This document shows positions 6,981 to 27,955 of a stretch of DNA of 64,000 bases, piece after piece. Both the position numbers and the translations under genes were made by a program. The notes beneath the pieces were generated by a model. That model saw nothing but the letters and a program-made list of their open reading frames with translations. It was not told the DNA's origin and ran no database searches. Position 1 is the first letter of the stretch. Every line of letters starts with the position of its first letter. Source of the DNA: Christiangramia sabulilitoris (GTDB lineage: Bacteria > Bacteroidota > Bacteroidia > Flavobacteriales > Flavobacteriaceae); the NCBI RefSeq assembly GCF_007050985.1, contig NZ_VHSF01000001.1:1302001-1366000 (forward strand). The letters run 5' to 3'.

Positions 6981-8675
6981 ATGCGCTGGACCTTAAAACC
7001 CAAACCCGACCCTATTACTGTAAATGCCCTGGCAGACAAATTAGGAGTAGGTGTGCCGGTTGCAAAACTTCTTGTTCAGAGGGGGATTACCACTTTCGAA
7101 GAAGCTAAGAAGTTCTTCCGGCCAGACCTTAAGCTATTGCACGATCCTTTCCTGATGAAGGATATGGAGAAAGCAGTAGACCGCATAGAACTAGCCATTA
7201 AGAATGAAGAAAATATCATGGTCTACGGGGATTATGATGTGGATGGTACGACCAGTGTTGCCTTGATGTCTTCTTACCTGAAATTCAGGTATCCAAATGT
7301 GGCAACTTATATTCCAGATCGTTATGAAGAAGGATATGGTGTGTCCTACAAAGGGATAGATTATGCTGCAGATAATGATATAAGTTTAATTATTGCTCTC
7401 GATTGTGGAATTAAGGCCATTGATAAGGTGGCATATGCTAAGGACAAAGGGGTCGATTTTGTCATCTGTGATCACCACAGGCCCGGGAGCGGGATTCCCG
7501 ACGCTGTAGCAGTACTGGACCCTAAAAGGGAAGATTGCAATTATCCCTATGACGAACTTTGTGGTTGTGGTGTAGGTTTTAAACTTATCCAGGCGATCAC
7601 TCAAAAAAATAATGAACCCGAGGAAACATTATTGCCTTACCTGGATCTCGTAGCTACCGCAATAGGAGCAGATATAGTGCCTATCACCGGGGAAAACAGG
7701 ATACTTGCCTATCATGGTTTACATGTTATAAATGTGGCGCCGAGAAAAGGTATCAAAAGTTTACTGGGGGACAAGAAGAATGTAAGTATCACCGATGTTG
7801 TTTTTATCGTGGCTCCAAGGATCAATGCTGCTGGAAGAATGAAACACGGCTTGCATGCGGTAAATCTCCTTACGGAAGAGGATGAGGAAATTTCAAAAAA
7901 ATATACTGAGGAGATCGAAGTCTATAATACAGACCGCAGAAGTGCCGACAAAACTATTACCGAAGAGGCAAAGCGGCAGATCATAGAACAAAAAGAGGAG
8001 CAGAGATTAACTACAGTGGTTTATGATGAGAACTGGCATAAGGGAGTTATCGGGATCGTAGCTTCCAGGTTGACCGAAACCTGGTACAGGCCAACGCTGG
8101 TATTTACCCGGAGTGGAGAGCGACTGGCGGCTTCGGCAAGGTCTGTAAAAGGATTCGATGTGTATGAAGCACTGGAAGGATGTAAAGATCATATAGAGCA
8201 GTTTGGAGGCCATAAATACGCCGCCGGCCTTACTTTGCTGGAATCTGAATATCTTAATTTTAAGAATAAGTTTGAACAGGTAGTTGCTGAAACAATAGAC
8301 CGGAACCTCTTAACGCCGGAGATCACTATTGATGAAGAATTGAATTTAAAGGATATCACTCCTAAATTCTACAGGATACTTAAACAATTTGCGCCATTTG
8401 GTCCCGGCAATATGTCCCCGGTTTTTATGACCCGCGGTTTGACCGATACCGGTTTTGGGAAATGTGTGGGAGAAGATAAAACCCATCTTAAATGCCAGGT
8501 GAAACAGGAAGGCTCAAAGGTCACTTTTGATGTAATAGGATTCAATCTGGGAGATAAACTGGATCTAATAAAAGAGGGTAAAAAATTTGACGCGGTTTAC
8601 AGTCTCGATGAAAATACCTGGAACGGGAACACCAAAATCCAGCTGAAATTAAAGGATATCAGGGAAAGTATTTAA
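6981..8675 (+). CDS. recJ: Single-stranded-DNA-specific exonuclease RecJ
   Basis: RecJ degrades single-stranded DNA 5' to 3' in recombination, mismatch and base-excision repair. The DHH motifs are clear: YGDYDVDGTTS (D84, D86, D88), the DCG motif at 141-143, and CDHHRPG (D164-H166). A DHHA1 domain with GVIGIVASRLTE and FGGHKYAAG follows, then the C-terminal OB-like domain. The 564 residues match the family. A TAATTTCG sequence 27 bases upstream is a weak -7 candidate. It is convergent with lpxH, and the stop codons overlap by 4 bases. Confidence 0.97.
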   Translation: MRWTLKPKPDPITVNALADKLGVGVPVAKLLVQRGITTFEEAKKFFRPDLKLLHDPFLMKDMEKAVDRIELAIKNEENIMVYGDYDVDGTTSVALMSSYLKFRYPNVATYIPDRYEEGYGVSYKGIDYAADNDISLIIALDCGIKAIDKVAYAKDKGVDFVICDHHRPGSGIPDAVAVLDPKREDCNYPYDELCGCGVGFKLIQAITQKNNEPEETLLPYLDLVATAIGADIVPITGENRILAYHGLHVINVAPRKGIKSLLGDKKNVSITDVVFIVAPRINAAGRMKHGLHAVNLLTEEDEEISKKYTEEIEVYNTDRRSADKTITEEAKRQIIEQKEEQRLTTVVYDENWHKGVIGIVASRLTETWYRPTLVFTRSGERLAASARSVKGFDVYEALEGCKDHIEQFGGHKYAAGLTLLESEYLNFKNKFEQVVAETIDRNLLTPEITIDEELNLKDITPKFYRILKQFAPFGPGNMSPVFMTRGLTDTGFGKCVGEDKTHLKCQVKQEGSKVTFDVIGFNLGDKLDLIKEGKKFDAVYSLDENTWNGNTKIQLKLKDIRESI

Positions 8676-24446: not shown

Positions 24447-25055
24447 ATGTCTTTTGAGTTACCAAAATTAAAATATGCTTTTGATGCATTGGAACCACAT
24501 ATTGATGCTAAAACTATGGAAATCCACCATGGAAAACATCATGCGGGTTATACTAAAAAATTAAACGACGCCATTGAGGGAACGGATATGGAGGGTAAAA
24601 ATATCGAGAACATTCTTAAAAATCTTGATATGTCCAATAAAGCTGTTCGAAATAACGGTGGTGGATTTTATAACCACAGCTTATTCTGGGAAATCATGTC
24701 TCCGGAAGGCGGTGGTAAACCTGAAGGTGAATTGGCCGAAGCTATCAATAGCGCTTTTGGATCTTTTGAGGCATTCAAAGAAGAATTCTCAAATGCTGCA
24801 GCAGGCCAGTTTGGATCTGGATGGGCGTGGCTATGTGTTCATGAAGGTGGTAAGGTAGAAGTATGTTCTACTCCAAACCAGGATAATCCAATCATGCCGG
24901 AGGTAGGATGTGGAGGAACTCCAATTTTAGGTCTGGATGTTTGGGAGCATGCATATTACCTGAACTATCAAAATAAGCGTCCGGAATATATCGATGCATT
25001 TTTCAATGTTATAGACTGGACAGAAGTTTCCAGCCGTTACGCGAAAGCAAAATAA
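24447..25055 (+). CDS. sodA: Superoxide dismutase (Mn or cambialistic Fe/Mn)
   Basis: It disproportionates superoxide in the cytoplasm. At 202 residues there is no signal peptide. Metal ligands are H27, H77, D164 and H168 ([26 protein letters not shown]). The glycine-rich segment before NHSLFW and the glutamine in NQDNP are the pattern expected of Mn-type rather than Fe-type enzymes, though cambialistic use is possible. It has its own promoter and terminator. Confidence 0.95.
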
Positions 25056-25075
25056 TTTTATTTGCAACATATACT

Positions 25076-25104
25076 AAAGGCCGCTTTATGCGGCCTTTTT
25101 TTTT
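25076..25104 (+). terminator. Intrinsic terminator of sodA
   Basis: AAAGGCCGC-TTTAT-GCGGCCTTT is followed by a run of nine T, 21 bases past the stop. Confidence 0.9.
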
Positions 25105-25133
25105 GTGATGATCACGATATTTCAATTTACAGC

Positions 25134-25210
25134 ATAAAAAAAGGCGGAATAAATTCCACCTTTTTTTGCCCCAAATCTACCATGAACTTAACCTACTTAT
25201 GCTATGGTAG
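25134..25210 (-). ncRNA. Candidate small RNA, array copy 1
   Basis: The 5' hairpin pairs CTACCAT with ATGGTAG across a 20-base loop containing GCATAAGTAGGTTAAGTTC. A linker ATTTGGGGC and a terminator stem GGTGGAAT/ATTCCGCC flanked by A7 and T7 follow. On this strand the stem is complete with one U-G pair; on the plus strand the same position is a C-A mismatch, so the minus strand is favoured. The terminator loop is two bases shorter than in copies 2-4. Confidence 0.65.
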
Positions 25211-25212
25211 GT

Positions 25213-25277
25213 TGAATATAAAACGAATTTTTGTAGCAGCTTTAATTATTAGACGAACTACCTGTAAAATAGTTAAA
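25213..25277 (-). promoter_or_regulatory. Promoter region of array copy 1
   Basis: The -7-like TATATTCA (25213-25220) lies 3 bases before the RNA body. The 29-base box at 25249-25277 (TTTAACTA... GGTAGTTCGTCTAA) begins 28 bases further upstream. No TTG at -33. Confidence 0.55.
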
Positions 25278-25310
25278 ATACTATAAAACAGTATTTTATG
25301 ATTTATTTCC

Positions 25311-25389
25311 ATAAAAAAAGGCGGAATAAAAATTCCACCTTTTTTTGCCCCAAATCTACCATGAACTTAACCTACTTATGCTATGGTAG
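25311..25389 (-). ncRNA. Candidate small RNA, array copy 2
   Basis: The body is the same as copy 1 with a 7-bp 5' stem and a terminator loop of AATTTTTATT form. It is the best-preserved unit together with copy 1. Confidence 0.65.
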
Positions 25390-25391
25390 GT

Positions 25392-25456
25392 TGAATATAA
25401 AACGAATTTTTGTAGCAGTTTTAATTATTAGACGAACTACCAGTATAATTGTTAAA
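25392..25456 (-). promoter_or_regulatory. Promoter region of array copy 2
   Basis: -7-like TATATTCA is at 25392-25399 and the upstream box at 25428-25456, again 28 bases apart. Confidence 0.55.
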
Positions 25457-25488
25457 CGGCTATAAAAGAGTATTTTACACTTATTTCC

Positions 25489-25567
25489 ATAAAAAAAGGC
25501 GGAATAAAAATTCCACCTTTTTTTGCCCCAAATCTACCATGAACTTAACCTACTTATGCTATGGTAT
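25489..25567 (-). ncRNA. Candidate small RNA, array copy 3
   Basis: The body is identical to copy 2 over the 49-base block. The 5' stem is shortened to TACCAT/ATGGTA. Confidence 0.6.
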
Positions 25568-25569
25568 AG

Positions 25570-25634
25570 TGAAGATAAAACGAATATCTGAATCAATTTT
25601 ATTTATTAGACAAACTACCTGTAAATTAGTTAAA
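25570..25634 (-). promoter_or_regulatory. Promoter region of array copy 3
   Basis: -7-like TATCTTCA is at 25570-25577 and the box at 25606-25634; the 28-base spacing is kept although the spacer sequence has changed. Confidence 0.5.
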
Positions 25635-25690
25635 CTGCTGAAATACAGATTTTTGTAGTATTTTTTAACTTTACGTTTTAAATTGTTGAC

Positions 25691-25768
25691 ATAAAAAAAG
25701 GCGGAATAAAAATTCCACCTTTTTTTGCCCCAAATCTACCATGAACTTAACCTACTTATGCTATGGTA
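25691..25768 (-). ncRNA. Candidate small RNA, array copy 4
   Basis: It has the same body and terminator as copy 3. The sequence upstream has diverged strongly, yet the control elements remain in place. Confidence 0.6.
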
Positions 25769-25771
25769 TCT

Positions 25772-25836
25772 TAAAGATAAGAAGAAATTTCAGGGAAAAT
25801 TAATTTTTTAGATGAACTACCGGTTAAATGGTTAAG
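25772..25836 (-). promoter_or_regulatory. Promoter region of array copy 4
   Basis: -7-like TATCTTTA is at 25772-25779 and the box at 25808-25836, 28 bases apart. Confidence 0.5.
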
Positions 25837-25903
25837 ATACTGAAAATCAATATATTGATAGTTTTCGAGTAATCTAATACAACATTATAGTGACCGGCGG
25901 GAC

Positions 25904-25978
25904 ATAAAAAAAGGCGGAATGAATTCCACCTTTTTTTGCCCCAAATCTACCATGAACTTAACCTACTTATGTTATGGT
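25904..25978 (-). ncRNA. Candidate small RNA, array copy 5
   Basis: This is the most diverged unit and sits directly downstream of purF. The 5' stem is reduced to ACCAT/ATGGT. The terminator stem is intact with a changed loop (AATTCATT). It could serve as the purF terminator or be processed from the purF 3' end. Confidence 0.55.
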
Positions 25979-25982
25979 GATA

Positions 25983-26047
25983 CTAATGTATATAGAATTA
26001 TAGGCTATACAAAGAATAATAGACCAAGTGCAGAAATATCTGTTAAA
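25983..26047 (-). promoter_or_regulatory. Degenerate promoter region of array copy 5
   Basis: TACATTAG (25983-25990) stands in the -7 place. The box at 26019-26047 matches copy 2 at 19 of 29 positions at exactly the same 28-base spacing. Confidence 0.4.
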
Positions 26048-26056
26048 GTGTAAACT

Positions 26057-27955
26057 TTAGTAAGCCCTGTCCGTTTTGCCTTCGTAAAAATTCATAAAAG
26101 CGCGATTCACAACCCTGTTCCCTCCTGCAGTTGGATAATCACCGGTAAAATACCAGTCGCCAAGATTTTTCGGACATGCTTTATGCAAGTTATCAACCGT
26201 TTGGTAAATAACCTTTACCTCTGCCTTCACATCTTTATCGCAAAGCAACTCAGAAATCTTATCTGAGATCTGCTCATTGGTAAATGGTTCATAGATCTCC
26301 TTGACAAAATTCTGTACTTCGCTATCACGCAGATCTACCTGGTCTCTACATTTTTTGTAGACTTTCTCGATAATGTCGTATTTGCCGCAATCCCTCAAAA
26401 GGTCCAGCGCTGCCCTAAAAGCTACCAGATCTTCCAGCCGGGCCATGTCAATACCATAACAATCTGGATATCTTATTTGTGGAGCAGAGGATACCACCAC
26501 AATCTTTTTAGGTTTTAGCCTGTCCATCATTTTTATGATACTTTTCTTGAGGGTAGTTCCCCTAACAATACTATCATCGATAATGACCAGGTTATCATCC
26601 GGTTTTACCACTCCGTAGGTTACATCATACACATGGGCAACAAGATCGTCGCGGCTACTGTCTTCAGTGATGAAGGTTCTCAGCTTAACATCCTTTATAG
26701 CGATCTTTTCTGTTCTTAGTCGATGAGATAGGATCTCTTGCAGCCTTGCATCGGTTAAAGTTTCCTTTTCGTCGAGGATGGCTTCATTTTTTTGTTTGTT
26801 CAATTCATCCTGGGCAGCTTCTACCATTCCGTAGAAGGATGTTTCCGCAGTATTAGGAATAAAGGAAAAAACAGTCTTTAAAGTATCGTGTTCTATAGAC
26901 TTTAAAACATCTGGCATTAAAAGGCGCCCCAGCATTTTACGCTCCTGGTATATTTCTGCATCGCTGCCTCGAGAAAAATAAATACGCTCAAAAGAACAGG
27001 CCTTCCTTTCCAGAGGTTCAATAATCTCAGTGATAGAGACCTCCCCGTTCTTTTTAGTAATGATAGCATTTCCCGGAGGTAATTCATGCACGTCATTAAA
27101 GTCTACGTTGAAAACCGTTTGAATAACCGGTCTTTCTGAGGCAACCACGACCACTTCATCATCCTTATAATAATAGGCAGGTCTTATCCCCGCAGGATCA
27201 CGTAATACAAAAGAATCACCATGACCAATTAAGCCGGCCATAGCATACCCACCATCCCAGTTCTTGGAAGATTTCTTCAGGATCTTCGCGACATTTAATT
27301 TTTCTGCAATTATAGGTGAGGCTTCAACTTTGGAGTATCCTTCGTTTTTCAGCTTTTTGTAAAGTTTTCTAACTTCAGAATCTAAAAAATGACCAATCTT
27401 CTCCATTACGGTCACCGTATCTGCTCGCTCTTTAGGATGCTGCCCGAGTTCGACCAGATTATTGAACAGCTTATTTACATTGGTCATGTTGAAGTTTCCG
27501 GCAACAATCAGGTTTCTGTGCATCCAGTTATTCTGTCTCAAAAAAGGATGTACACTTTCGATACTGTTCTTGCCAAAAGTCCCGTATCTCACGTGGCCAA
27601 GAAAAACCTCGCCCAGGTAAGGGATATATCTTTTTTGCAAATCTGTATTGTCTGCATACTCAGGATTTGCTTTTATTTCATCATTGATCCTTTGATTTAT
27701 CTGTTCAAAAATATCCTGAATTGGCTGAGCCTGGTTGGAACGCACCCGGCTTATATAACGCTCCCCGGGAATTGTATTGAGTTTGATACTTGCAAAACCG
27801 GCACCATCCTGCCCACGGTTATGTTGTTTCTCCATGAGGAGATACATCTTGTTTACTCCATAAAATGCGGTACCGTATTTTTCTTTATAATAGTCAAGAG
27901 GTTTTAAAAGCCTAATATGCGCAATTCCACATTCGTGTTTTATAGCATCACTCAT
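26057..27955 (-). CDS. purF: Amidophosphoribosyltransferase (PurF-type class II glutamine amidotransferase)
   Basis: It would transfer glutamine nitrogen to PRPP, the first step of purine synthesis. The Ntn nucleophile is probably C9 in HECGIAHIRLL, which needs removal of an eight-residue leader. EKQHNRGQDGAGF and LGHVRYGTFG follow as in class II amidotransferases. The phosphoribosyl site is NLVIIDDSIVRGTTLKKSI. At 632 residues it is longer than the ~500 of E. coli PurF, with inserts and a C-terminal extension. A divergent member of the family is possible, but the PRPP loop supports PurF. Confidence 0.88.
   Translation of the reverse strand: MSDAIKHECGIAHIRLLKPLDYYKEKYGTAFYGVNKMYLLMEKQHNRGQDGAGFASIKLNTIPGERYISRVRSNQAQPIQDIFEQINQRINDEIKANPEYADNTDLQKRYIPYLGEVFLGHVRYGTFGKNSIESVHPFLRQNNWMHRNLIVAGNFNMTNVNKLFNNLVELGQHPKERADTVTVMEKIGHFLDSEVRKLYKKLKNEGYSKVEASPIIAEKLNVAKILKKSSKNWDGGYAMAGLIGHGDSFVLRDPAGIRPAYYYKDDEVVVVASERPVIQTVFNVDFNDVHELPPGNAIITKKNGEVSITEIIEPLERKACSFERIYFSRGSDAEIYQERKMLGRLLMPDVLKSIEHDTLKTVFSFIPNTAETSFYGMVEAAQDELNKQKNEAILDEKETLTDARLQEILSHRLRTEKIAIKDVKLRTFITEDSSRDDLVAHVYDVTYGVVKPDDNLVIIDDSIVRGTTLKKSIIKMMDRLKPKKIVVVSSAPQIRYPDCYGIDMARLEDLVAFRAALDLLRDCGKYDIIEKVYKKCRDQVDLRDSEVQNFVKEIYEPFTNEQISDKISELLCDKDVKAEVKVIYQTVDNLHKACPKNLGDWYFTGDYPTAGGNRVVNRAFMNFYEGKTDRAY

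Follow-up and report, generated by a model that had tools for sequence, protein, structure and literature searches.

Between a purF-like gene and sodA, the window (the whole 64,000-nucleotide stretch of Christiangramia sabulilitoris DNA that was analyzed) carries five minus-strand units (25136-25978), each laid out in the same order as a promoter, a 39-nt core RCCATARCATAAGTAGGTTAAGTTCATGGTAGATTTGGG and an intrinsic terminator, such that every copy has, by sequence only, a promoter and a terminator of its own (Table 1). A 49-base block (plus strand, ATTCCACCTTTTTTTGCCCCAAATCTACCATGAACTTAACCTACTTATG) that the first-pass annotation had reported as common to the units is indeed identical in 5/5; the unit length of ~145 bases given there is replaced by a repeat period of ~180-210 bases (start-to-start distances of the five direct-repeat copies, 179, 178, 202 and 211 bases). 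A DNA search of the organism's own genome returned the five copies of the array and none elsewhere. The gene upstream of the array encodes a 632-aa protein whose NCBIfam purF score, 127 bits, is below the cut-off of 350 and whose Pfam domains are those of a glutamine amidotransferase only; its product is therefore described as PurF-like and not as a standard PurF.

Table 1. Features of the array and its flanks, in window coordinates; transcripts and promoter elements are predicted.
Feature	Position	Strand	Basis or remark
sRNA unit 1 (purF-proximal), predicted transcript	25906..25978	-	5' end 25978, inferred from the TAnnTTTG-like box at -12..-5; covariance model (CM) R1 102.7 bits
sRNA unit 2	25693..25767	-	5' end 25767; CM R1 98.8 bits
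sRNA unit 3	25491..25565	-	5' end 25565; CM R1 98.8 bits
sRNA unit 4	25313..25387	-	5' end 25387; CM R1 98.8 bits
sRNA unit 5	25136..25208	-	5' end 25208; CM R1 103.3 bits
-7 box TACATTAG of unit 1	25983..25990	-	sequence; consensus
TTTG (-33 type element) of unit 1	26010..26013	-	sequence; TTTG at -35..-32 conserved in 24 first units
-7 box TATATTCA of unit 5	25213..25220	-	equivalent in units 2-4
20-bp-spaced direct repeat, unit 2 promoter	25808..25836	-	pattern match, 2 mismatches; lag-20 self-identity
20-bp-spaced direct repeat, unit 3 promoter	25606..25634	-	pattern match, 0 mismatches
20-bp-spaced direct repeat, unit 4 promoter	25428..25456	-	pattern match, 1 mismatch
20-bp-spaced direct repeat, unit 5 promoter	25249..25277	-	pattern match, 0 mismatches
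Amidophosphoribosyltransferase-like gene ('purF')	26057..27955	-	upstream flank of array, same strand; context only
Superoxide dismutase gene sodA	24447..25055	+	convergent flank of array; context only

The 5' end of each predicted transcript was set at the purine preceding CCATA, 5 bases past a TAnnTTTG-like box, because that box then sits at -12 to -5. TAnnTTTG is the consensus at this position over 160 loci with 313 distinct upstream regions (almost all in other genera, with Christiangramia loci L185 and L187 still included), and according to the accessible part of PMC9723704 it is, at that position, the published sigma-A promoter box of F. psychrophilum. The sequence between units, which had been described as unrelated, proves not to be wholly so: units 2-5 have a common promoter with a spaced direct repeat, and throughout the genus units 2 onward have the half-sites CAGY..TTTAACTA and GGYA.TTCRTCTAA in common. 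Self-identity of the upstream regions peaks at a lag of 20 (0.49 for 54 later units and 0.59 for 24 first units), and over the 313 regions identity at lag 20 is 0.47, compared with 0.25-0.35 at all remaining lags between 8 and 30 and with 0.38 in a cross-unit control. The pattern would correspond to two direct half-sites 20 bp apart, lying just upstream of the core promoter in units 2-5 and, more weakly, in unit 1. At up to 2 mismatches it occurs in the organism's own genome in four array units and at one other place, which falls between two minus-strand genes, has the opposite orientation and resembles a chance match; a search of the same genome for a direct-repeat regulon gave 13 hits in all, including eight at 3 mismatches, and the control also gave 13. 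One dedicated regulator probably acts on the array promoters, and would switch the array on, with copy number setting the dose.

Each predicted RNA is 73-75 nt long (a length read from the DNA alone) and comprises a 30-nt 5' hairpin, a linker AGATTTGGGGC and the terminator. The 5' hairpin had been drawn earlier as CTACCAT/ATGGTAG; a hairpin is indeed predicted, as RCCAT/ATGGT plus an inner stem, but the outer CTA belongs to the promoter, upstream of the start. The 5' 30 nt are predicted to fold with -5.9 to -6.2 kcal/mol over 8 RNA bodies, and in a set of 108 distinct rows (taken from loci L034-L093, where 150 of 155 matches were used and 55 loci contribute) the pairs of this hairpin are kept at 99.4-99.7%, paired cells overall amounting to 98.7%. 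In the same rows 12 of the 14 terminator pairs have changed on both sides, giving 202 two-sided cells compared with a mean of 48.6 after shuffling (0/500 shuffles as high), in an alignment that was fitted to the model and so leans towards it, and whose cells count sequences and not events. The two 5' helices have two-sided changes in 0 of 11 pairs, and their variation consists of A-U/G-U and C-G/U-G exchanges only, plus six unpaired cells. Covariation, which the first-pass annotation had proposed as a check, thus supports the terminator well, whereas the 5' hairpin is no more than compatible. The strand assignment drawn from terminator wobble pairs (minus strand U-G, plus strand C-A) also stands: the alignment column pair 51-66 is U-G in 19 of 24 distinct genus rows and U-A in the other 5, and in these rows the wobble pairs of the terminator form on the minus strand only.

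All 24 Christiangramia genomes searched carry the RNA, in 2-5 copies each. A search with the 32-nt core at 0-1 mismatch gave 79 copies in 24/24 genomes and 0 for a reversed control pattern, which excludes chance; 78 units were extracted at one locus per genome (one truncated by a contig end), the 79th core copy being on a second contig of genome G001. The covariance model R1, built from 24 genus sequences, matched 251 of 299 family genomes and 203 of 236 genera at E<=0.01 with strict filters, and 237 of 299 genomes at E<=1e-8, where 14 with weaker best E values drop out. In a sample of 296 genomes from the order, again with strict filters, all 40 matches at E<=1e-6 fall within Flavobacteriaceae; ten genomes of the same family had no match, and the other families in the sample had none. 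The proposal of a multicopy family of ~75-nt minus-strand RNAs is borne out by these predicted relatives in 237-251 of 299 family genomes. Named genomes with the 32-nt core account for at least 115 stretches and include Aquimarina, Winogradskyella, Salegentibacter, Lacinutrix, Formosa and Flavobacterium; the number of units per locus runs from 1 to 7 (loci L034-L089), mostly in tandem. A 22-nt piece of the core had 0 exact matches among viral contigs. In loci L067-L080 and L082 the last unit of each array is a distinct paralogue with the core TTTATGG..GGGAC or GGGAT, in whose promoter a AATACCAGTA stretch is conserved and no spaced repeat is visible by eye; this last unit may be separately regulated.

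When the own genome was pattern-searched for a 13-nt stretch complementary to the core, the array itself was the only match. Shuffled cores bind start-codon windows less well than the core does (z about -2.1 to -2.2), a difference that does not extend to windows elsewhere; in 369 start regions this signal comes from TTCATGG against ATG alone and the flanks add nothing, so general start-region enrichment, a positional signal due to TTCATGG alone, was set aside as evidence of pairing. SusC-type receptors were not supported as targets, the 13 parsed start regions (from 30 receptor-family loci of which 13 were parsable, 9 of those in ORFs over 700 aa) having a median of -15.7 compared with a background of -16.0 (389 regions). 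Likewise not supported was pfkB, which adjoins purF and ranks second in the scan (-29.0), and which is not complementary in 9 other loci. Sampled start regions of four other genomes yielded no recurrent target. One start region in genome G171 (locus L375, start codon near base 7873), preceding an 846-aa protein MSVNLQTPIDYLKGVGPNRA, has a tsaE-like arrangement CCCTAAAT..ATG..TTAACCTTC at -25.7 kcal/mol.

The duplex with the start region of tsaE (-29.5) is first of the 389 own-genome start regions sampled, with close runners-up at -29.0 and -28.9. The gene, whose identity is confirmed by Pfam and NCBIfam, follows porX, with alanine dehydrogenase one gene further on, and was matched in 23 of 24 Christiangramia genomes. 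In 23/23 of those found, complementarity between the leader and sRNA nt 13-40 spans the start codon, and the leader outranks every other window of its locus in 23/23. Mean duplex energy for 21 leaders is -32.6, compared with -14.2 (sd 2.1) for shuffled cores (0/200 as low), and -32.8 when the own species is left out. Although tsaE was first chosen from that species, its duplex there is weaker than in 20 of 22 other species, contrary to what would be expected of a chance pick. Cofolding paired sRNA nt 13-40, omitting one or two bases, in 6/6 species tried, with a gain of -16.6 to -22.5 kcal/mol and one larger mRNA bulge of ~ten bases in all six. The leader block occurs among the 23 as CCCAAATCT (13), CCCGAATCT (7), CCCAATCT (2) and CCCCAATCT (1), and codons 3-4 are TTA ACC in 23/23; changes in the leader block and codons 3-5 are pairing-compatible (A to G, C to T), a one-base bulge being needed in three species, and the spacer between the two has 14 variants. 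Because 8 of 51 degenerate tsaE sites use a single codon, the invariance of codons 2-4 is only moderately unusual. The two-block score of the own-genome tsaE match is equalled by 22/300 shuffled cores, so the choice of tsaE rests on its conservation, among leaders of one genus that share ancestry. In stretches roughly opposite the array in four genomes, tsaE was found in G117 only and not in those of G146, G171 and G458, and the leader in G117, the one other genus examined, is without the site (-7.5 kcal/mol). Further targets must therefore exist, as the near-invariance of the core across the family also implies, and tsaE is a probable lineage-limited target. The own-genome tsaE promoter (locus L249, 15100-15230) holds GGTAGTTTATCCAA, which resembles one sRNA promoter half-site and by eye is not conserved in most other species.

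These results are consistent with a reading, given a probability of roughly 0.6, in which the array encodes five near-identical trans-acting sRNAs that pair with mRNA start regions, tsaE being one target in Christiangramia. Each sRNA of 73-75 nt would be made from its own minus-strand promoter and ended by its own terminator, and its core (nt 13-40) would pair with translation starts through an apical loop GUAGGUUAA, an anti-start segment UUCAUGGU and a linker AGAUUUGGG. At tsaE the linker would pair with CCC[A/G]AAUCU near the putative mRNA 5' end. The AUG itself would be covered by the anti-start segment, and codons 3-5 would pair with the loop, leaving about ten leader bases bulged out; such pairing would block tsaE initiation and presumably lower t6A synthesis. 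The hairpin loop and linker had been put forward earlier as candidate pairing regions, and the predicted tsaE pairing uses both plus the bases between them. More tentative, and as a whole somewhat doubtful, is the larger picture of a Flavobacteriaceae-wide sRNA regulon outside Rfam, in which the tandem array would multiply one regulator's output, the 28-nt core would clamp mRNA starts by pairing over the start codon and to either side of it, and tsaE and t6A would come under its control in Christiangramia.

CsrB-type RNAs titrate an RNA-binding protein, and by analogy the invariant core might act as a protein-binding decoy, with tandem copies raising the dose and mRNA pairing being incidental. 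Such a role, which is considered unlikely, would suit both the near-invariance of the core across the family, at paired and unpaired positions alike, and the finding that start regions in bulk are without flank complementarity. However, a conserved match to the tsaE leader in 23/23 loci would not be expected of a decoy, and the core by eye lacks a run of repeated motifs, though TAAGT is present in it twice. Nor was an RRM_1 protein (RbpB type) found in the genome at E<=0.001 (0 matches, with the control Bacteroides ihuae positive, in a search of the RRM_1 class alone).

At gathering score, Rfam models find only tRNA in the window. Window positions 24900-26150 gave 98 matches at E<=10, and Flavo-1, a flavobacterial motif like this RNA and the one that the first-pass annotation had named for comparison, is absent from them. 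These lenient matches look terminator-driven, with the exception of the anti-start motif of FopS and BTnc231. It is nevertheless improbable that the array represents a distant branch of Bacteroides FopS, repressing susC-type receptors with RbpB as partner. The Rfam alignment does have TTCATGG then TAGATTT common to both, and both are multicopy ~70-nt RNAs with a conserved 5' part and a terminator (as FopS is described in the accessible part of PMC11697453), but the FopS model (RF04319) scores only 18.4-21.3 bits, its gathering score being 56, and other weak matches in the own genome are as good. Furthermore, similarity of this degree is reached by 95 of 5000 shuffled cores for FopS and by 480 for BTnc231, the genome has no RRM_1 match at E<=0.001, and the 13 receptor starts do no better than background. 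UUCAU followed by AGAUUU is common to FopS, BTnc231 (RF04319, RF04180) and this RNA (window 25900-25975), and perhaps represents a convergent anti-start seed in three Bacteroidota sRNAs.

Action in cis on the neighbors, as an attenuator or a terminator buffer between the purF-like gene and sodA, seems hardly likely. It would account for the gene order in 175 loci (L034-L208, in which some genomes are repeated and many loci stop short of the neighbor position), where purF and sodA both lie beside units in 129, at least one of them in 162 and neither in 13, the last group including the weak loci L090-L093, which hold no core. It would not account for the standalone copies, which keep the core and their own terminators in various gene contexts, and which answer the check, proposed earlier, for the same RNA without purF or sodA. 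Every unit moreover has its own promoter box, and the complementarity of neighboring start regions (purF in 78 loci, sodA in 125, addA in 50, kbl in 32 and pfkB in 9) stays within the range of shuffled cores (7 to 40/60 shuffles as low), so the neighboring genes are not supported as targets. Standalone or paired copies in loci without purF or sodA lie at L191 1828, L095 4549, L112 1209, L158 7459, L170 630, L101 135 and L085 1542 and 1665, where L191 and L095 each represent a second site, the main locus being present in their genomes too (L141, L181); by eye, the genes adjoining standalone copies include rhodaneses, a PriA, a PRPP synthetase and others. That the units encode a tiny peptide beginning ATGGTAGATTTG can practically be dismissed: ATG GTA GAT TTG GGG CAA does run in frame through the core, but an extra A directly after ATGGTA shifts the frame in 54 of 108 distinct family rows, terminator loop lengths differ by single bases among family rows, and third positions are as invariant as the others.

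The preferred reading, that of trans-acting sRNAs pairing with mRNA starts, comports with the earlier reading of the units as a regulatory RNA family, which the present predictions support. Few flavobacterial sRNAs have a studied function, and this RNA is present in about four of five sampled family genomes (237/299); its near-unchanging core and wide spread single it out as a candidate for a core regulator in a large bacterial group of marine and soil habitats. A predicted transcript, promoter and regulator site and a testable first target are all defined, and the family model could be proposed to Rfam. If control of tsaE is true, sRNA regulation would be linked to tRNA modification, with an sRNA setting t6A capacity.

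Among known systems, LhrC of Listeria and Qrr of Vibrio exist as several near-identical copies with separate promoters and exert a dose effect. This RNA resembles them in its near-identical copies and separate promoters, and would also share with them a dose effect and, probably, control by one regulator; they belong to a different phylum, and we know of no sequence relation between them and this RNA. Both are named as multicopy sRNAs in the accessible part of PMC11697453. FopS, to judge by the same portion of that paper, is likewise multicopy and about 65-75 nt long, with a conserved 5' part holding the anti-start-codon UUCAUGGU, its own sigma-A type promoters and a terminator, and it pairs with susC start regions. 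It differs in that its 5' part is described there as single-stranded, whereas a hairpin is predicted for this RNA, and in that it is present in 12-15 copies per genome, compared with 1-7 per locus, mostly in tandem, in the present case. No homologue of its partner RbpB (RRM_1) turned up in this genome at E<=0.001, and the susC-type receptors that are its targets are not predicted targets of this RNA (13 start regions).

Within the flavobacteria, the Rfp RNAs of F. psychrophilum (PMC9723704) and the F. columnare candidates (PMC5395568) are sRNAs of which some are conserved beyond one species, as far as the accessible parts of these papers describe them. Rfp18 is presented there with a third stem-loop as its pairing region (PMC9723704), compared with two predicted stem-loops here, a comparison made by description only, and one of the Rfp RNAs (PMC9723704) or F. 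columnare candidates (PMC5395568) may be an orthologue of this RNA. In the accessible portions of the openly licensed literature on flavobacterial, FopS-like and tandem sRNAs, on the purF/sodA setting and on tsaE with sRNA, this RNA is unnamed. The best reading is that the array would represent a new family of a known kind, the multicopy trans-acting sRNA.
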